64,000 nt of DNA from Geothrix limicola (GTDB lineage: Bacteria > Acidobacteriota > Holophagae > Holophagales > Holophagaceae), in NCBI RefSeq assembly GCF_030268085.1, contig NZ_BSDE01000003.1:496001-560000 (forward strand), read 5' to 3'. The position numbers and the translations under genes were made by a program. Positions 13,155 to 24,245 of this stretch are shown here, piece after piece. The first letter of the stretch is position 1, and the number at the start of each line of letters is the position of its first letter. The notes beneath the pieces were generated by a model. It made no database searches. It saw nothing but the letters and a program-made list of their open reading frames with translations, and had not been told where the DNA came from.

Positions 13155-13850
13155 CTAGTCTTCGAGGAAGAGACGGTAGCCGACACCGGGTTCGGTCTTG
13201 AGGTAGCGAGGGCGCGAGGGCTCTTCTTCGAGCTTGTGGCGCAGCTGGGTCATGTAGACGCGGAGGTAGAGCGGCTGGGCGCCGGCGGCGCCGCCCCAGA
13301 CCTCCTTCAGCAGCTGGCGGTGGGTGACGACCTTGCCCGCGTGGCGGATGAGGGTGGTGAAGAGGCTGTATTCGAGGGGCGTGAGGTGCACCTCCTGGTC
13401 TTCGACGAACACCTGGCGTTTGGCCAGGTCCACGCGCCAGCGCCCCAGCGTGAAGACCGGCTGTTCTCCGGCCTCGGGATTGGCGTGGCGCAGGGCCACG
13501 CGCACGCGGGCCAACAGTTCGCGGGTGCCGAAGGGCTTGGTGAGGTAGTCGTTGGCGCCCGCGTCGAGGGCGTCGACCTTGTCGCTCTCCTGGCCCCGGG
13601 CCGAGATCACGATGACTGGGATCTGGCTCCATTCGCGCAGACGCGAGACGACTTCCAGGCCGTCCATGTCGGGCAGGCCCAGGTCCAGCAGGAGGACGTC
13701 GGGGCGGTGCTGGGCCGCGAGGCTGAGGCCCTCCTGCCCTGTGGCGGCTTCGAGATAACGGTAGCCGCTGCCCTCCAGGGACACGCGGAGGAAGCGGCGC
13801 ATCTGCGGTTCGTCCTCCACGAGGAGAATGAGGGCACCGGGGCCGCTCAT
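13155..13850 (-). CDS. kdpE: Response regulator KdpE
   Basis: The 231-aa OmpR/PhoB-type regulator has a receiver domain with acidic residues E12-D13, phospho-acceptor D56 in LLLDLGLPDMDG and the conserved Lys in LTKPFGTREL, then a C-terminal winged helix (residues ~130-228) with YLRVYMTQLRHKLE and the final PGVGYRL. It overlaps the kdpD stop by ATGA and so forms the KdpDE two-component system, which switches on high-affinity K+ uptake during K+ limitation or osmotic stress. Candidate binding sites are listed at 16591, 18669 and 24207. Confidence 0.95.
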   Translation of the reverse strand: MSGPGALILLVEDEPQMRRFLRVSLEGSGYRYLEAATGQEGLSLAAQHRPDVLLLDLGLPDMDGLEVVSRLREWSQIPVIVISARGQESDKVDALDAGANDYLTKPFGTRELLARVRVALRHANPEAGEQPVFTLGRWRVDLAKRQVFVEDQEVHLTPLEYSLFTTLIRHAGKVVTHRQLLKEVWGGAAGAQPLYLRVYMTQLRHKLEEEPSRPRYLKTEPGVGYRLFLED

Positions 13851-16534
13851 AGGGCCTCCTCAGGCAGGGAAGGCGGCGTGCCGAGGGGCAGCATGACGAG
13901 GAACTGCGCGCCGCCCTGAGGATGGTTGACGGCCTGGATGTGTCCGCCGTGCGCCATGGCGATGCCCTTGCAGATGGCCAGTCCCAGGCCGGCGCCGGGG
14001 CGGTTGGAGGCGACCTGCCCGCGCGCGAGCTTTTCGAAGATGCGTGCCTCCTCGCCGGGGGGGATGCCCGGCCCCCGGTCAGAGACGGAGAGGGTGAGCG
14101 ACTTGCCGGCGGCCCAGGCCTTGATATCCACGGGGGATCCGGGCGGCGAGTACTTCAGGGCGTTGTCGAGCAGGTTCAGCAGCAGCTGCTCCATGAGCAC
14201 GCCGTCCATGGCCACGAGCGGCAGGTCCTCGGGCAGGGAGACGCGCACACGGTGGGCCTCGGCGGCCATCTCGCGGCGGTTGAGGGCCGAGCCCACCACC
14301 TCCTCCAGGGGCATCCATTCCGTGTGGAGGTCCAGGGCCCCCGATTCCAGGCGGGTGATGTCGAGCAGGTTGCTCACGAGGCGGTGCAGGCGCTGGGCCT
14401 CTTCCTGGGCGGACTGGAGCAGTTCCCGGCGGGCGGGCTCGGCGAGATCCGGCGTCTCCAGGGCCGTGCTCACGGCGCCGGTGATGACGCCCAGCGGCGT
14501 GCGCAGGTCGTGCGAGACGGAACTGAGGAGGGCGTTGCGCAGCCGCTCCTCATCGGCCCGCTGCCGGTCGAAGGCGCTCTGTTCGGCCAGCAGCGCGCGT
14601 TCCAGAGCCAGGGCGGTCTGGTTGGCGAAGGCTTCCAGCAGTTGCCGCTGATCGGGCTCGGCCCAGCGCGGCGCGCCTTCGGGCAGCACGCCCATGACGC
14701 CGATGGCGCCGCGGGCCCCCTTGAGGGGCAGGTAGGTGGCGCGGGCGCCGGGCAACGTGAGCGTGCCCAGGCCTGCGGGTTCGGCATGGTCGAAGACCCA
14801 CTGGGCGACACCCAGTTCCTGCTCGTTGAGGGGGAAGGCCAGAGGGTGCTCGGGCCGTTGGAGGCGGCCATGTTCATCGGGCTGCAGGACGACGCCCTGG
14901 CTCTGGAACTGGGTCGCCACGTTCTGGATGGCCGAGGCCACCAGGGCGGCGGAACCCGCGCTGCGGGCCAGCTCCTGGCCCAGTCGGTAGAGGGCGTGGG
15001 TGCGCTGCTCGCGGCCCCGGGCGAGCCGCGCCTGGGCGCGGATGCGCTCGGTGAGGTTGCCGATGACGAGGCCCAGCAGCAGCATCACGGCGAAGGTGCC
15101 CACGTGGCGGAAGTCCGTGACGGCGAAGGTGAGGTAGGGCGGAACGAAGAGGAAATCCACCGCCGCCACGCTGAGGATGGAGGCCAGCAGGGAAGGGCCG
15201 CGGCCGAAGCGCGTGGCCACGATCAGGATGCCGAGGAGGTAGACCATGATGATGTCGGCCAGCTCGTTGCGGCGGAAGATGAGGCCCGCGGCGCCGCTGG
15301 CCAGGCCCACGACGAGGGCGGCCAGCAGGTAGTTGCGCGCGGGACTCGTGATGCCGCGCCTCAACAAGGGGGCGGCGGGCTCGCGGCCGGGTTCCCCGCT
15401 GATGACGTAGACATCGATGGTGCCGCTGTCGCGGATGAGGTCGTCCACCGTCGAGCCCCTCAACAGCTCCACCCAGCGGGGCCGCGAGGGCTTGCCCACG
15501 ACGATCTTGGTGATGTTGCGATCCTGCGCGAAGGTGAGGATGTCTTCGACCAGGGTGCCGGCGCCTTCGATGACCGCCGTCTCGCCGCCGAGTTTCTCCG
15601 CGAGGCGCAGGCTGCTTTCGATGCGCGCGCGCTCTTCTTCCGTGAAACGCAGATGATGGCGCGACTCCACGTAGAGGGCCATCCAGGGCGCGCCCAGGGC
15701 GCCGGCCATGCGCCGTGTGCCACGGATGAGCCGTTCGGAAAGCTCGCCTGGGCTCACGCAGACCAGCAGCCGGTCGCCCGCGGCCCAGGTCTTGCGGATG
15801 CCTTCGGAGGCCATGTAGCGGCGCATCTGCGCGTCGACGCTTTCGGCCGTGTGGCGCAGGGCCAGCTCGCGCAGGGCCAGGAGGTTGCCCTTGCGGAAGA
15901 AGTGATCCTGCGCGTGGCGGGCCTGGTCGGGAAGGTAGACCTTGCCTTCCTTGAGGCGCACCAGCAGGTCGTCCGGGGGCAGGTCCACCAGCTCGACCTC
16001 GTCGGCGCGTTCGAGCACCGTGTCCGGCACGTTCTCGCGCACGATGACGCCCGTGATCTGGGCCACCACGTCGCGCAGGCTCTCTAGGTGCTGGACGTTC
16101 ATGGTCGTGTAGACGTCGATGCCCGCGTCCAGGAGCTCCATCACGTCCTGCCAGCGCTTGACGTGGCGCGATCCCATCACGTTCGAGTGGGCCAGCTCAT
16201 CCATGAGGATCAGCGAGGGCCGGCGCTTCAGGGCCGCATCCAGGTCGAATTCGGGAAGGAACTGCCCCGCGTAGGCCAGCTCCTGGCGCGGCAGGACCTC
16301 CAGCCCTTCGAGGAGGGCCGCGGTCTCGGATCGGCCGTGGGTCTCCACGACGCCGACGAGCACGTCGAACCCTTCCTTCCTTCGCTCCTGCGCCTCGGAG
16401 AGCATGGCGTAGGTCTTGCCGACGCCGGGCGCGGCGCCGAAGAAGACCTTCAGCTTGGCCCGCAGGGCCCGGGCCTCCTCCTCCTGCACCCGACGGAGCA
16501 GGGGTTCAGGATCGGGCCGTCCTGGTTCGCGCAC
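13847..16534 (-). CDS. kdpD: Potassium sensor histidine kinase KdpD
   Basis: The 895-aa protein is full-length KdpD. The N-terminal KdpD domain carries Walker A GAAPGVGKT (33-41) and DELAHSN. A universal-stress-protein-like domain follows (residues ~250-380), then four closely spaced membrane helices (~400-495), a GAF-like region (~515-650), HisKA with the phospho-acceptor His675 in SVSHDLRTP, and a complete HATPase_c. It starts at GTG 16534 and is divergent from the KimA-like gene. It controls KdpE phosphorylation in response to K+ and ionic strength. Confidence 0.96.
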   Translation of the reverse strand: MREPGRPDPEPLLRRVQEEEARALRAKLKVFFGAAPGVGKTYAMLSEAQERRKEGFDVLVGVVETHGRSETAALLEGLEVLPRQELAYAGQFLPEFDLDAALKRRPSLILMDELAHSNVMGSRHVKRWQDVMELLDAGIDVYTTMNVQHLESLRDVVAQITGVIVRENVPDTVLERADEVELVDLPPDDLLVRLKEGKVYLPDQARHAQDHFFRKGNLLALRELALRHTAESVDAQMRRYMASEGIRKTWAAGDRLLVCVSPGELSERLIRGTRRMAGALGAPWMALYVESRHHLRFTEEERARIESSLRLAEKLGGETAVIEGAGTLVEDILTFAQDRNITKIVVGKPSRPRWVELLRGSTVDDLIRDSGTIDVYVISGEPGREPAAPLLRRGITSPARNYLLAALVVGLASGAAGLIFRRNELADIIMVYLLGILIVATRFGRGPSLLASILSVAAVDFLFVPPYLTFAVTDFRHVGTFAVMLLLGLVIGNLTERIRAQARLARGREQRTHALYRLGQELARSAGSAALVASAIQNVATQFQSQGVVLQPDEHGRLQRPEHPLAFPLNEQELGVAQWVFDHAEPAGLGTLTLPGARATYLPLKGARGAIGVMGVLPEGAPRWAEPDQRQLLEAFANQTALALERALLAEQSAFDRQRADEERLRNALLSSVSHDLRTPLGVITGAVSTALETPDLAEPARRELLQSAQEEAQRLHRLVSNLLDITRLESGALDLHTEWMPLEEVVGSALNRREMAAEAHRVRVSLPEDLPLVAMDGVLMEQLLLNLLDNALKYSPPGSPVDIKAWAAGKSLTLSVSDRGPGIPPGEEARIFEKLARGQVASNRPGAGLGLAICKGIAMAHGGHIQAVNHPQGGAQFLVMLPLGTPPSLPEEAL

Positions 16535-16590: not shown

Positions 16591-16625
16591 CCTAACACTT
16601 TCTTAACGCGCCTTCGGGCCATTCT
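16591..16625 (+). promoter_or_regulatory. Candidate KdpE box and -10 element for the KimA-like gene
   Basis: CCTAAC (16591-16596), N5, CTTAACG (16602-16608) form two half-sites with an 11-bp period, the geometry used by OmpR/PhoB-type regulators. Eleven bases later comes CATTCT (16620-16625), a plausible -10. The same arrangement recurs at 18669 and 24207, but the extra upstream CTTAACG found at those sites is absent here. Confidence 0.6.
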
Positions 16626-16720: not shown

Positions 16721-18613
16721 ATGCCCAATGTCCGATCATTTCTCCTGGGGCGGCGACTCTCGACGGAAGAGAGCCACGAAACCAAGATCAGCAATCCCAT
16801 CGCCCTGGCGGTGTTCAGTTCGGACGCGCTGTCCTCGGTGGCCTACGGCACCCAGGAAATCATGGCGCCCCTCACGGCGGCCATCGCCATCTTCGGCGCG
16901 GGCGTGCTGGGCTGGTCCTGGTGGGTGGCCCTTGGCATCGTGGGCCTGCTGCTCATCCTCAACGTGAGCTACCGCCAGACCATCCACGCCTACCCCAGCG
17001 GGGGCGGCGCCTACCTGGTGGCCAAGGACAACCTCGGCGAAGCCGCGGCCCAGACGGCGGGCGCCTCCCTCCTGATCGACTACATCCTGACGGTGGCGGT
17101 GTCCGTATCCGCGGGCGTCTCGGCCATCATCTCGGCCTTCCCGGGGCTAGAGGCCCACCGCATCTTCCTGGCCGAGGGCATCATCGCCTTCATCGCCCTG
17201 ATGAACCTGCGGGGCGTGAAGGAAAGCGGGCTGGTCTTCTCGCTGCCGACCTACGGGTTCGTCGTCTGCATCGTGGGGCTGCTGCTCAAGGGCTTCTGGA
17301 ACGTGGCAACCGGCCACGAAGTCATCACCGCCCATGCCGCCGTCGCCCACGTGGAGGGCACCTCCAAGCTGGCGGCCCTGTGGCTGCTGGCGCGGGCCTA
17401 CAGCGCGGGCTGCACGGCGCTCACGGGAGTCGAAGCCATCAGCAATGGCGTGACGGCGTTCAAGGATCCGGTCTCGCGTAACGCGTCGAAGACGATGACC
17501 TGGATGGTCGTGATCCTCGGGACGATGTTCCTGGGCATCACCTACCTGACGAACCACTACGGGCTGACCTACCATCCGGACTCGCCGGAGACCCTGCTGT
17601 CCCAGCTCACCCGCATCATCCTGGGCGGCGCGGAGCACGGCTTCCCCAGGCTCGTCTACCTCGTCACCACGGGCTTCACCATGGCGATCCTGGCCCTGGC
17701 GGCCAACACGGCCTACGCGGATTTCCCGCGCCTGGCTGCGCTTCACGCCCGGGACGGCTTCCTGCCGCGCCAGTTCACGAGCCAGGGGGACCGCCTCGTC
17801 TTTTCCAATGGCATCTTCATCCTGTCCCTGGCCGCCGGGGTGCTGGTCCTGCTCTTCGGCGGGAAGGAAGACCACCTGCTGCCCCTCTACGCCGTGGGCG
17901 TGTTCCTGGGCTTCACCATCAGCCAGACCGGCATGGTGCGCCGCTGGTTCCGCCTCAAGGGCAAGGCCTGGCAGCTGAAGGCGCTCATCAACGGCGTGGG
18001 CGCCGTGACGACGTGCATCGTGATGCTGGTGATCGCCGTGACGCGATTTGCCCACGGGGCCTGGATCGTCATCGTCCTGGTGCCCCTGATGGTGATGACC
18101 TTCTTCAACATCCACCGCCATTACATCCGCATCAAGTCGATCCTCGCCGCGAGCCGTGTGGACTTCGTCGGTCCGCGCCGGAACCGAGTTGTGGTGCTGG
18201 TTTCGGGCATCCACGCGGGCGTGGTGCAGGCCCTCAACTACGCGAAGGTCATCGCGGACCGCGGCGAAGTCGAGGCGCTCACCGTGGACTTCCCCGATGA
18301 GCGCGGCCGCGACAGCGCGGCGCTGGACAAGCTGCAGTCTGACTGGCCGAGGTACTGCGAAGGCATTCCCCTGCGGGCCCTGCGCAGCCCCTACCGCAAG
18401 GTGGTCGAGCCCATCGTGCAGGAACTGGAGCGCATGCGGAAGGTGGAACCGGAATACACCATCACCGTGATCCTGCCTGAATTCATAACCGGCCATTGGT
18501 GGGCGAACCTGCTGCACAACCAAACCGCCTGGCGCATCAAGGGCACCCTTCTGCTCATGCCCAAGATCATCGTGATTTCGATTCCCTACCATGTGGAGCC
18601 GGTGATCGAGTAG
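16721..18613 (+). CDS. KimA-like potassium importer (APC superfamily)
   Basis: From ATG 16721 the protein has 630 aa; a GTG at 16661 would add 20 residues that look unconserved. The N-terminal two thirds is a 12-helix APC-type transporter beginning KISNPIALAVFSSDALSSVAYG, a segment characteristic of the KimA/YdaO group of K+/H+ symporters. The last ~150 residues form a soluble cytoplasmic domain starting near VVVLVSGIHAGVVQAL. Location between kdpD and the kdp operon, and a shared promoter box, support a K+ uptake role over amino-acid transport. KimA of Bacillus is controlled by c-di-AMP; no such riboswitch is recognisable here. Confidence 0.8.
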   Translation: MPNVRSFLLGRRLSTEESHETKISNPIALAVFSSDALSSVAYGTQEIMAPLTAAIAIFGAGVLGWSWWVALGIVGLLLILNVSYRQTIHAYPSGGGAYLVAKDNLGEAAAQTAGASLLIDYILTVAVSVSAGVSAIISAFPGLEAHRIFLAEGIIAFIALMNLRGVKESGLVFSLPTYGFVVCIVGLLLKGFWNVATGHEVITAHAAVAHVEGTSKLAALWLLARAYSAGCTALTGVEAISNGVTAFKDPVSRNASKTMTWMVVILGTMFLGITYLTNHYGLTYHPDSPETLLSQLTRIILGGAEHGFPRLVYLVTTGFTMAILALAANTAYADFPRLAALHARDGFLPRQFTSQGDRLVFSNGIFILSLAAGVLVLLFGGKEDHLLPLYAVGVFLGFTISQTGMVRRWFRLKGKAWQLKALINGVGAVTTCIVMLVIAVTRFAHGAWIVIVLVPLMVMTFFNIHRHYIRIKSILAASRVDFVGPRRNRVVVLVSGIHAGVVQALNYAKVIADRGEVEALTVDFPDERGRDSAALDKLQSDWPRYCEGIPLRALRSPYRKVVEPIVQELERMRKVEPEYTITVILPEFITGHWWANLLHNQTAWRIKGTLLLMPKIIVISIPYHVEPVIE

Positions 18614-18668: not shown

Positions 18669-18724
18669 CTTAACGCAAGCGGACCCTCTATTAGCGCCGT
18701 CTTAACGGGCGCCACGGCGATCCT
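18669..18724 (+). promoter_or_regulatory. Candidate triple KdpE box and -10 element
   Basis: CTTAACG (18669-18675), N14, ATTAGC (18690-18695), N5, CTTAACG (18701-18707), N11, GATCCT (18719-18724). The order and every spacing equal those upstream of kdpFABC on the other strand (24245-24190). It would drive the truncated secreted-protein ORF that starts at 18763. Confidence 0.65.
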
Positions 18725-18762
18725 GTCTGGCTGGCAATCTGCGCCGGATCTTTGGAGTCGTG

Positions 18763-19032
18763 ATGAATTCGCCCCTCATGCTTCTCGTGCTGGTCGGCCT
18801 TCCAGTGCTGGCCCAAGCCCCGGCTCCCGCCAAATCCGCCGAGCCCTTCGCCGAGTTCCGCCTCGGGCGAGAGGTGGGACATCAGTTCCGCGGCATCGGC
18901 GGGGTGCACCTCCCGGAAGCGGTGCCCAAGGGTGAGCCATTGCTGAGCTTCGATGAGCTCGGCCATCCGCGCGGGCGTGAGGGGGGCCTGGGTTTCCATC
19001 ATCCGATCCTCCGCTTGGGAACCTCATCGTGA
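18763..19032 (+). pseudogene. Truncated gene for a secreted or outer-membrane protein
   Basis: The ATG has GGAG five bases upstream and follows a KdpE-type promoter. The first ~19 residues are a clear signal peptide (hydrophobic MLLVLVGLPVLAQA followed by PAPAKSAEPF). After roughly codon 32 the reading frame runs antisense to an mgtE-like fragment and looks like noise until a stop at 19032. I interpret it as the 5' end of a K+-limitation-induced exported protein, possibly a porin, whose remainder has been deleted. The original product cannot be identified. Confidence 0.6.
18855..19002 (-). pseudogene. 5' fragment of an mgtE-like magnesium transporter gene
   Basis: On the reverse strand, an ORF starting at 19002 (ATG ATG) encodes MAELIEAQQWL...REVHPADAAELMSHLSPEA, which matches the start of the MgtE_N domain (the HPAD-AELL-LSPE repeat). 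After about 48 residues the similarity stops and the frame runs into the oppositely oriented secreted-protein gene. No CBS or membrane domains are present. It is a broken gene remnant, and the breakpoint is near 18855-18868. Confidence 0.65.
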
Positions 19033-19079: not shown

Positions 19080-19106
19080 GGGGACGCACGGATTCCGTGC
19101 GTCCCC
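19080..19106 (-). terminator. Hairpin downstream of kdpC, probable operon terminator
   Basis: Arms GGGGACGCACGGA (19080-19092) and its exact complement (19094-19106) enclose a single base. On the reverse strand the stem is followed by TTT and lies 46 bp beyond the kdpC stop. It also shares TGCGTCCCCCCG with the palindrome inside kdpB. Confidence 0.6.
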
Positions 19107-19152: not shown

Positions 19153-19746
19153 TTATTTCGAGGCGAGCGTTTCCAGGGCCAGGTTCAGCTTCAGCACGTT
19201 CACGCGGGCATCGCCCAGCACGCCGATCTGGGGCGGTTCCGTGTGGGCGGCCACGAGGTCGCGCACCTTGGCTTCGTCGAGGCCTCGGGCCTTGGCCACG
19301 CGGTGCACCTGGTAGGCGGCGGCGGCGGGGCTGATGTGGGGGTCGAGGCCGCTGGCCGAGCTCGTCACGAGGTCCACGGGCACGGGGCCCGTCGCTTCGG
19401 GATCCGCCGCGCGGAGGGCGGCGATGCGCTCTTCCACGGCCTTCTTCAGATCGGGGTTGCTGGGGGCCAGGTTGGAGCCGCCGCTGTTGGCGCCGTTGTA
19501 GGGCAGGGGCTTGCCGTTGGCGTCGACGGTGGCGGAGGGGCGGCTCCAGAAATCCCGCGGCGATGTGAAGGCTTGGCCGATGAGTTCGGAACCGATCACC
19601 TGGCCATCCTTGTGGATGAGGCTACCCGCGGCCTGCCTGGGGAAGATGAGTTTGGCGAGGCCCGTGGTGAGGGCGGGGTAGGCGAGGCCCGTGAGGACGC
19701 TGAGGGCGATGAAGGAGACGAGGGCGGGACGGAGTTGCAGGTTCAT
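19153..19746 (-). CDS. kdpC: K+-transporting ATPase subunit C
   Basis: The 197-aa protein is the single-span KdpC subunit that stabilises the KdpFABC complex. It has one N-terminal transmembrane helix (residues ~8-28) and the conserved periplasmic features [20 protein letters not shown] and [16 protein letters not shown], then the terminal region [10 protein letters not shown]. It is the last gene of the operon and is separated from kdpB by 102 bp that contain two hairpins. Confidence 0.96.
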
Positions 19747-19848: not shown

Positions 19849-22077
19849 TTAGGCCGCGAAGTGGAGGGCGACGAGCAGCCAGTCGATGAGCTTGATGCCG
19901 ATGAAGGGCACCACCAGGCCGCCGGCGCCGTAGATCAGCAGATTCCGCTGCAGCAGCTGGGCGGCACCCACGGGCCGGTACTTCACGCCGCGCAGGGACA
20001 GCGGGATCAGCACGACGATGATCAGCGCGTTGAAGATCACCGCCGAGAGGATGGCGCTTTCGGGGCTGTGCAGGCCCATGATGTTGAGGGCGCCCAGGGC
20101 CGGATAGGTGGCCACGAAGGCCGCCGGCAGGATGGCGAAGTACTTGGCCACGTCGTTGGCGATGCTGAAGGTGGTGAGCGACCCGCGCGTCATGAGCATC
20201 TGCTTGCCGATCTCCACGATCTCGATGAGTTTGGTGGGATTGGAATCCAGGTCCACCATGTTGCCGGCCTCTTTCGCCGCCTGGGTGCCGCTGTTCATGG
20301 CCACGGCCACGTCCGCCTGGGCGAGGGCGGGGGCGTCATTGGTGCCGTCGCCCGTCATGGCCACGAGGCGGCCCCCGGCCTGGTACTCGCGGATGAGTTT
20401 GAGCTTGGCTTCAGGCGTGGCCTGGGCGAGGAAGTCGTCCACGCCCGCTTCGGCGGCGATGGCGGCGGCGGTGAGCGGGTTGTCGCCGGTGATCATGACG
20501 GTCTTGATTCCCATGCCCCGCAGTTCGGAGAAGCGCTCCTTGATGCCGCCCTTCACGATGTCCTTGAGCTGGATGACGCCCAATGCTCTCGCGGGGGGAC
20601 CGCCCGGCCCGCGGGCCTCTGCGTCCCCCCGCGCTCCCCCATTGGTTCGGTCGGCGGAGCCGCCCGCACCGATCAGGCCCGGGCAATATTCGGCCACCAC
20701 GAGGGGCGTGCCGCCGGCCATGGAGATCTGATCCACCGTGCGGCGCAGGTCGTCGGGGAACTTGCCGCCATTGGACTGGACGTAATCCTCGATGGCCGAG
20801 GCCGCGCCCTTGCGGATCTGGCGCTGGCCCCCTTCCGTGGTGAGGTTCACCCCGCTCATGCGGGTCTGGGCGGTGAAGGGCACGAAGTGGGCGTCGAGGG
20901 CGTGCAGGTCCCGTTCGCGCAGGCCGTACTGCTCCTTGGCCAGCACGACGATGCTGCGGCCCTCGGGGGTTTCATCGGAAAGCGAAGAGAGCTGGGCCGC
21001 ATCGGCCAGTTGCTTGATGTCCACGCCTTCGGCAGGCAGGAAGGCGACCGCCTGCCGGTTGCCCAGGGTGATGGTACCGGTCTTGTCCAGCAGCAGCACG
21101 TCCACGTCGCCGGCAGCTTCCACGGCGCGGCCCGAGGTGGCGATGACATTGGCCTGGATCATGCGATCCATGCCCGCGATGCCGATGGCGCTGAGCAGGC
21201 CGCCGATGGTGGTGGGGATGAGGCAGACCAGCAGGGAGACGAGCACCGTGAGGCTCACGGGGCTGCCCTGGCCCGCGGCCTTCACGCTGAAGATGGAGAA
21301 GGGCAGGAGGGTGGCGGTGGCCAGGAGGAAGACGATGGTGAGGCCCGCCAGCAGGATATCGAGCGCGATCTCGTTGGGCGTCTTCTGGCGCTTGGCGCCT
21401 TCCACCATGGCGATCATGCGGTCGAGGAAGCTTTCGCCGGGGTTCGAGGAGATGCGGATCACCAGCCAATCCGAGAGCACCAGGGTGCCGCCGGTGACGG
21501 CGGAGCGGTCGCCGCCGCTTTCACGGATGACGGGCGCGCTTTCGCCGGTGATGGCGCTTTCGTTGACGGAAGCGACGCCTTCCACCACTTCGCCATCGCC
21601 GGGGATGGTCTCGCCGGCTTCCACCAGCACCATGTCGTTGATGCGCAGTTCCGGCGCATCAACCACCTTGTGGGGGCCCTGGCGATCGGTGCCGACGAGG
21701 CGTTTGGCCTTCACGTCGCGCTTGGATTTGCGCAGGGAATCCGCCTGGGCCTTGCCGCGGCCCTCGGCCATGGCTTCGGCGAAGTTGGCGAAGAGCAGGG
21801 TGAACCAGAGCCAGAGGGAGATGGCGAGGATGAAGCCGGGACGGCCTTCGCCGTGGCCCGCCAGGGCCTGGACCCAGAGCCCCGTGGTGAAGGCGCTGCA
21901 GATCCACACGGTGAACATCACGGGGTTGCGGAGCTGGTGCAGGGGGTTCAGCTTCCGAAGCGCATCGATGACCGCGCGGCGCACGATGCTGGGCTCGAAG
22001 AGGGGGCGGGCTTGCCCATAGGTCCCACCTCGCGCATGTGCGAGGTGGGGAAGGTCCTGCCGGGAATGGGGAACCAT
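19849..22077 (-). CDS. kdpB: K+-transporting P-type ATPase subunit B
   Basis: The 742-aa catalytic subunit hydrolyses ATP to energise K+ uptake through KdpA. Visible landmarks are the actuator motif TGES (177-180), phosphorylated Asp331 in DKTGT, the nucleotide-domain KGA segment (423-425), and the hinge [12 protein letters not shown]. It starts at an ATG with GGAG six bases upstream. Two parts look inserted: residues ~3-24, which contain a DNA palindrome, and residues ~464-497 (Gly/Ala/Arg-rich, YCPGLIG to GGPPAR), which break the usual VVAE-(D/N)GR-xLGVIQLKD continuity. The second insert lies in a surface loop of the nucleotide domain and keeps the frame. Confidence 0.94.
20591..20632. repeat. 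REP-like palindrome inserted in frame within kdpB
   Basis: GCGGGGGGAC (20591-20600) and GTCCCCCCGC (20623-20632) are perfect 10-bp arms around a GC-rich loop. The element falls exactly within the extra Gly/Arg-rich segment of KdpB and resembles the palindrome at 19801-19841. Confidence 0.6.
22024..22049. repeat. Palindrome in the kdpB 5' coding region
   Basis: CCCACCTCGC (22024-22033) and GCGAGGTGGG (22040-22049) form a perfect 10-bp stem with a 6-base loop. It encodes part of the atypical N-terminal extension of KdpB, close to the start codon, and could influence translation initiation. Confidence 0.5.
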
Positions 22078-22092
22078 GATCGTCTCCGGGAA

Positions 22093-23790
22093 TCAGCGAA
22101 GCGAAAGCTGCTCGGCGATGGGGCCGAGGGCCAGGGCGGGCAGGTAGGTGAGGGCGCCCACCAGCAGGACCACGCCCACCAGCACGGCCACGAAGAGCGG
22201 GGTGTGCGTCGGCAGGGTGCCCAGACCCTCGGGCGTGACCTTCTTGCGGCCGAGGGAACCGGCGACGGCCAGCACGGGGAAGATGACGCCGAAGCGGCCC
22301 ACGAGCATGGCCAGGGCCAGGCCGTAGTTGTAGAAGGGGATGTTGCCGTTGAGGCCGCCGAAGGCGCTGCCGTTGTTCTGGGCGCAGCTGCTGAAGGCGT
22401 AGAGCACCTGTGTGAAGCCATGGGGCCCGGGGTTCGAAATGGAGGCCGTGGCCGCGGTCGAGAGCACGGCCGCCGCGGTGCCGATGAGGATGGCCGCCGA
22501 GGGCAGGAGGATGGCGATGGAGGCCATCTTCATTTCGAAGGCCTCGATCTTCTTGCCCAGGTATTCCGGCGTGCGGCCCACCATGAGGCCGCCGATGAAG
22601 ACGCCCACCAGCGCGAAGAGGAGCATGCCGTAGAGACCCGAACCCACACCGCCGAAGACCACTTCGCCCAGTTCCATCAGCCAGAGGGGCACGAGGCCGC
22701 CCAGGGGGTTGAAGGAGTCGTGCCAGCCGTTGATGGCCCCGCAGGAGGCAGACGTGGTGATGGTGGCGAAGAGGCTGGTGGCGCCGCTGCCGAAGCGGAC
22801 TTCCTTGCCCTCCATGTTGCCGCCGCCCTGGTGCACGGAGACGACCTGGTCGACGGGGAGCTGCTTCAGGCCGGCATTGCCCTTGGATTCGGCCCAGGTG
22901 GTGACGGAAAGGGCCAGCACGAAGATGACCGACATGGCGGCCAGCACGGCCCAGCCCTGGCGGCGGTCCTTCACCATCCGGCCGAAGGTGAGGCAGAGCG
23001 CCGCGGGGATGACGAAGATCGCCAGCATCTGGATGAGGTTGCTGAGGGCGTTCGGGTTTTCGAAGGGATGGGCGGAATTCGCGTTGAAGAATCCGCCGCC
23101 GTTGGTGCCGAGCATCTTGATGGCCACCTGGGAGGCCACGGGGCCCATGGCGATGACCTGGCCGGAGGCGGTGTGCACGTAGGCCGCAAGGTTCTGGATG
23201 ACGCCCTGGGAGACGAGCAGGAGGGCCATGACCAGGCTGAGGGGCAGCAGCACGTAGAGGGTGCTGCGGACCAGGTCGGCCCACGCGTTGCCGATGCCGT
23301 TCGAGGTGCGCCGCACCAGGCCGCGGATGAGGGCCACGAGTACGGCCATGGCCGTGGCGGCGGAGAGGAAGTTCTGCACCGTGAGGCCCAGCATCTGGGT
23401 GAGGTAGCTCATGGTGCTTTCACCACCGTAGTTCTGCCAGTTGGTGTTGGTGACGAAGCTGACGGCGGTGTTCAAGGCGAGGTCCGTGGGCAGCTTGCCC
23501 ATGGCTTCGGGGTTCAGGGGAAGGGCGGCCTGGGCATTCTGCAGCGCGAAGACGGCGGCGATGCCCAGCAGGTTGATGAAGGCGATGGCCCAGGCGTAGG
23601 TCTTCCAGCCCATGTCCTCTTCGCCGGAGATGCCCATGAGCCGGTAGATGCCCCGTTCCACAGGCCCCAGCACGGGGTGGAGGAAGGTGCGTTCCCCTTC
23701 CATCACTTTGGCGATGAAGGGGCCGAGGGGCACGGCGAGGGCGAGGAGGAGGCCGAGGAACAGGAGGTTCTGGATCCAGGCGTGGCTCAT
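22093..23790 (-). CDS. kdpA: K+-transporting ATPase subunit A
   Basis: The 565-aa membrane subunit forms the K+ pathway of KdpFABC and belongs to the superfamily of K+ transporters with four pore-loop repeats. It has about ten helices and the conserved segments [30 protein letters not shown] and [17 protein letters not shown], which contain the selectivity-filter glycines. The ATG overlaps the kdpF stop (ATGA at 23787-23790), and 15 bp separate it from kdpB. Confidence 0.97.
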
Positions 23791-24189: not shown

Positions 24190-24245
24190 AGGATGGCCAC
24201 GACGAACGTTAAGGCGCCGTTAGGAGACGGCGCCGGCCCGTTAAG
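24190..24245 (-). promoter_or_regulatory. Candidate triple KdpE box and -10 element of the kdp operon
   Basis: On the reverse strand: CTTAACG (24245-24239), N14, CCTAAC (24224-24219), N5, CTTAACG (24213-24207), N11, CATCCT (24195-24190). Half-sites are 11, 21 and 32 bp apart, matching the array at 18669. It is placed 37 bp upstream of the first start codon of the kdp transcript (24153). Confidence 0.7.

Follow-up and report, generated by a model that had tools for sequence, protein, structure and literature searches.

We analyzed a 64-kb window on contig C3 of a 4.23 Mb assembly (20 contigs, ~97% complete). The host, a soil bacterium, is Geothrix-like (Holophagaceae), judging from KimA homologues in named Geothrix species and Holophagaceae MAGs. 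The locus described here lies in the gene order kdpE(−) kdpD(−) / kimA(+) kdpC(−) kdpB(−) kdpA(−), with an interval of 540 bp between kimA and kdpC. The genes around this interval are the following.

13155..13850, minus strand: kdpE-type response regulator, with receiver and Trans_reg_C domains
13847..16534, minus strand: kdpD, sensor kinase, from a domain and family profile match
16721..18613, plus strand: kimA, KimA-type K+ transporter and left syntenic anchor, from a match to PDB 6s3k (E 6.6e-138) and synteny
19153..19746, minus strand: kdpC, right syntenic anchor, from a domain and family profile match
19849..22077, minus strand: kdpB, named from its place in the gene order and its conservation next to kdpC in relatives
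22093..23790, minus strand: kdpA, from gene order and conservation in relatives

Two more kimA-type genes are located in tandem on the same contig (C3:202183-206016), with 87% and 61% identity to the window KimA. Between the two anchors, we identified eight features, two of which are open frames crossing the same junction from opposite sides.

18691..18707, plus strand: operator-like site TTAGCGCCGTCTTAACG of the dead porin gene, a putative KdpE site
18691..19002, minus strand: chimeric open frame of 103 aa from the ORF list, running from the MgtE N-terminus into the antisense of the porin remnant
18754..18757, plus strand: Shine-Dalgarno sequence GGAG of the porin remnant, from the sequence, with GGAG similarly placed in homologues
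18763..18852, plus strand: putative 5' remnant of a BBP2 (PF07642) outer-membrane porin gene, ~30 of ~458 codons (signal peptide, linker, and AEPFA motif), from comparison with intact porin genes
18763..19032, plus strand: chimeric open frame of 89 aa from the ORF list, a signal peptide fused to the antisense of mgtE
18850..18867, no strand: junction interval between the end of porin homology and the start of antisense mgtE homology, from homology limits and codon preference
18856..19002, minus strand: putative 5' remnant of an mgtE gene, its first ~46-49 codons, with GGAGGA at 19007-19012, from comparison with MgtE N-termini and codon preference
19080..19106, no strand: GC-rich inverted repeat GGGGACGCACGGATTCCGTGCGTCCCC between the mgtE start and the kdpC stop, from the sequence and an opposite-strand self-match in DNA searches

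The forward ORF begins with an ATG at 18763, has a signal-peptide-like N-terminus MNSPLMLLVLVGLPVLAQA and stops at 19032. The reverse ORF begins with an ATG at 19002, preceded by GGAGGA, and from 19002 back to ~18860 reads MMETQAPLTPARMAELIEAQQWLTLGHRFREVHPADAAELMSHLSPE. Pfam and NCBIfam searches of the short forward ORF yielded no match, including none to the PF07642 beta-barrel domain, and a Pfam search of the reverse ORF, a short fragment below Pfam detection from which the membrane domain PF01769 is absent, was equally silent. Thus, the identities of both halves rest on comparative work. Scans for sigma-70 promoters and terminators returned no matches, and the inverted repeat at 19080..19106 is a possible terminator of kdpABC.

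The forward part agrees with the first 30 codons and the promoter of BBP2 porin genes, a type present at 13 loci in 12 of the 47 genus genomes and, in most carriers with readable flanks, adjoining kdp genes. The aligned 5' ends of these genes follow a common design, namely, an operator-like site YTARCRCNNYYYTAAYR, a spacing of 50-82 nt, GGAG, the start codon, a signal peptide, a linker, and the motif EPF(A/T)FADF. The window sequence follows this design through AEPFA (18852) and then diverges, and the match bears out the proposal, made in an earlier note on this DNA, that a gene for a secreted protein starts here. In a close relative (G032), a complete forward gene encoding 458 aa lies between kimA and kdpC, and its product is a BBP2 porin (PF07642, E 3.1e-40); the operator, spacing (56 versus 55 nt), Shine-Dalgarno sequence, and N-terminus match those of the window remnant. 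A tblastn comparison of the relic with an intact porin N-terminus gave an E-value of 7e-7. The kdp genes closest to those of the window genome belong to G032 and a second relative (G041), and the window genome clusters with these two in a tree of concatenated KdpB, KdpC, and KdpD (93/93). Given the shared 5' design and the grouping with G032 in the Kdp tree, the segment 18763-18852, which has the position, operator, spacing, start, and AEPFA motif of a porin 5' end, can be assigned, as its 5' end, to an orthologue of the G032 porin that has been truncated. It shares the operator, ribosome site, signal peptide, and AEPFA of the Geothrix members of the BBP2 family (PF07642, putative beta-barrel porin-2, OmpL-like) but lacks the whole barrel (residues 31-458), and is a remnant, not a member of the family. 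No other BBP2 porin of this type was found in the window genome. The signal peptide survives in outline only, codon 2 being Asn in the window and Lys or Arg in all 13 intact homologues; the earlier statement that the forward gene keeps its promoter, ribosome site, and signal peptide accordingly holds for the operator and GGAG and only in part for the signal peptide.

For the reverse part, a profile of four MgtE N-termini, three of which had themselves been found with the reverse fragment so that the profile is partly query-selected, gave a score of 35.5 bits over positions 1-46, aligned start-to-start, versus 8.6 for the best of 5000 shuffles. A comparison with a single protein is free of such selection: the sole Holophagaceae MgtE found, which was retrieved via PF01769 and independently of the reverse fragment, scored 80 in a Smith-Waterman alignment, ungapped and with M1 on M1, versus 52 for the best of 5000 shuffles. 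A phylum-wide search with the fragment retrieved three further proteins that Pfam confirmed as full MgtE, plus some unrelated matches, and a PDB search returned only MgtE, without significance (E 1.8). From these alignments, we identify 19002 to ~18860 on the minus strand as an MgtE N-terminus, as the earlier note had done for a fragment starting at 19002. Full MgtE Mg2+ transporters (PF03448 + CBS + PF01769) match it over its first 46 residues, with the two starts aligned, but the CBS domains and the membrane domain are lost, as is most of the N domain.

Scanning GTDB with the reverse fragment detected no relative, and no source closer than one resembling the Holophagaceae MgtE was found. The MgtE membrane domain occurs in none of the 47 genus genomes, the window genome included, and within the family an MgtE transporter is encoded in a single other Holophagaceae genome. 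MgtE_N proteins without the MgtE membrane domain (L098-L106) are present in nine of the 47 Geothrix genomes, none of which encodes an MgtE transporter. These proteins were rejected as donors, MgtE_N being internal in those that we read. The weak matches of the 49-aa reverse query in the 47 genomes were, where inspected, unrelated or antisense frames.

Codon preference, with five window genes as the reference, is best for a plus frame in 18763-18852 (+0.26 bits per codon) and for a minus frame in 18860-19002 (+0.41 bits per codon), which places a switch of coding strand at the junction. Our estimate of 18850-18867 largely coincides with the junction near 18855-18868 that had been proposed. The forward frame remains open across this point for 89 codons behind a kept start and operator, and its first 30 codons have host-like codon usage, as could be expected if the chimera now functioned as a small secreted protein that is induced at low K+. 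However, the part after the junction scores below the antisense mgtE frame (−0.03 versus +0.41), the basic residue that all 13 intact homologues have in the signal peptide is lost, and no homologue exists in 30 relatives, where conservation of the compact ORF had been named in the earlier note as an observation that would count against a scar. A DNA search of the region in the same number of relatives gave, outside the window genome itself, only short, chance-like matches. We consider a functional chimera very improbable, and the fused forward ORF is probably a pseudogene.

The interval between kimA and kdpC varies among relatives: it spans 25-41 bp in three of them (G044, G013, and G014), contains a TorF-type porin in G041, and extends over 2.5 kb with two genes in G032, whose KimA is 94% identical to the window KimA. 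On this comparison, we regard the kimA/kdpC region as a site of repeated gene gain and loss, and the present analysis marks it as such. Within it, 18763-19002 is likely to consist of two pseudogenes, the 5' ends of a porin gene and an mgtE gene, brought together by one deletion of at least ~2.5 kb (the missing coding sequence amounts to ~2.5 kb if the porin is taken to have 458 codons and MgtE 462). Under this model, the ancestor would have carried a BBP2 porin gene after kimA, in forward orientation and driven from a Kdp-type operator, and an mgtE gene after kdpC on the other strand, converging with the porin gene. One deletion would have eliminated the 3' portion of each gene and fused the two 5' ends head-on near 18850-18867, leaving behind a promoter, probably still regulated, and a start from which only a short, badly targeted peptide with no selected function could be produced. 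A deletion of this size is the simplest explanation, not a demonstrated event; we infer the former coexistence of two intact genes at this site, their loss in a single event, and an inert product.

A single deletion between two convergent genes was also the earlier proposal, with the expectation that relatives would carry a full gene for an exported protein and a full mgtE between kimA and kdpC. The first of these is found in G032, at the syntenic place, and the missing parts of both genes are absent from the rest of the assembly, which is ~97% complete, so that the 3' halves could in principle lie in its gaps. The second is not found: no relative has a full mgtE converging at the kimA-kdpC locus, and the lack of a nearby mgtE in relatives, which the earlier note had set against its own reading, extends to all 47 genomes of the genus. 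It is because of this absence that the ancestral mgtE has the status of a reconstruction. The absence weakens the deletion model without excluding it, and the ancestral state may be unsampled.

The main rival to a single deletion is a replacement, in which a foreign piece bearing only the 5' end of mgtE took the place of the porin gene's 3' part, and a full mgtE never resided here. The missing MgtE transporters of the genus (47 of 47 genomes), their presence in only one other member of the family, and the differing content of the kimA-kdpC interval all fit this scenario, which, however, requires an insertion with two breakpoints, one within the porin gene and one within mgtE. Moreover, mgtE retains its start, its ribosome site, and the spacer upstream of them, as a resident gene would, and the codon usage of the remnant fits the host kdp and kimA genes. 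Overall, replacement appears improbable. An inversion (or translocation) was rejected: neither 3' half is present in the genome and the junction DNA has no second copy there, so loss fits better. A wrong joining of two contig pieces could be envisaged for a 20-contig assembly, but both flanks are neighbors in the same order in relatives, which makes a mis-joined contig unlikely; in addition, the genome has no second copy of either side, and none of the other contigs was found to contain the missing halves. We consider such an artefact hardly credible.

The favored deletion resembles other deletion-derived gene remnants among bacterial pseudogenes in its 5' remnants, lost 3' parts, syntenic flanks, and short orphan ORFs. 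It differs in that two opposite-strand genes would have been lost together, with their 5' ends now head-on, and in that the pre-deletion arrangement is not observed. A deletion scar is an ordinary phenomenon, and we consider this reading well supported; the short ORFs at 18691-19032 should not be annotated as genes.

The operator of the porin remnant has two counterparts in the window, both found by pattern search.

16592..16608, plus strand: the same operator, in the kdpD/kimA intergenic region
24207..24223, minus strand: copy of the operator with one mismatch, upstream of the kdp structural genes (before kdpA)

With at most one mismatch allowed, the 64-kb window thus has three occurrences of the pattern (before kdpD/kimA, the remnant, and kdpA) versus 0.05 expected, and the only two exact matches in the 4.2 Mb genome lie before the remnant and before kimA/kdpD; because these sites and the porin alignment served to define the pattern, its presence in them is by construction, and the evidence lies in its rarity and in its conservation 50-82 nt before the start of 13 of 13 intact porin genes. 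A reversed control pattern has no exact match in the whole genome. The operator common to the kdp promoters, which we used as the mark of the KdpDE regulon, is present at the porin remnant and shared only with the kimA/kdpD and kdpA promoters, in line with the earlier description of the forward gene as K+-regulated. KdpE is predicted to bind this operator, and the promoter of the remnant may still respond to K+.

On balance, we lean toward the view that the Kdp (low-K+) regulon of Geothrix includes, as a dedicated member, a BBP2-family outer-membrane porin encoded beside the kdp genes under its own KdpE-type operator and serving K+ entry across the outer membrane, with the window genome as a natural loss-of-function case. 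If true, this would give BBP2 porins a physiological role, and the conserved porin-kdp link exposed by the analysis is of more interest than the scar itself. A literature search found no description linking Geothrix with kdp, or a BBP2 porin with kdp, a result that carries little weight as subscription journals were largely outside the search.

Several further observations concern the surroundings of kdp genes in relatives. An exported-looking protein of ~240 aa is encoded divergently from the kdp-linked BBP2 porin in G032 (L078 9932-10663) and in G055 (L199, upstream of the porin); the G032 copy had no Pfam or NCBIfam match. The interval between porin and kdpC in G055 (L199 9296-10250) contains a cut kdpE-like receiver in forward orientation, 67% to KdpE residues 8-115, followed by the opposite-strand start of a membrane-protein-like frame, and might be a second scar of similar layout. 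In G049 (L081 3900-4480), a kdpF-like start, KdpA residues 137-182, and KdpC residues 125-194 are fused in one open frame from which kdpB is missing, pointing to a collapse either of the kdp operon, in what is a metagenome bin, or of the assembly.
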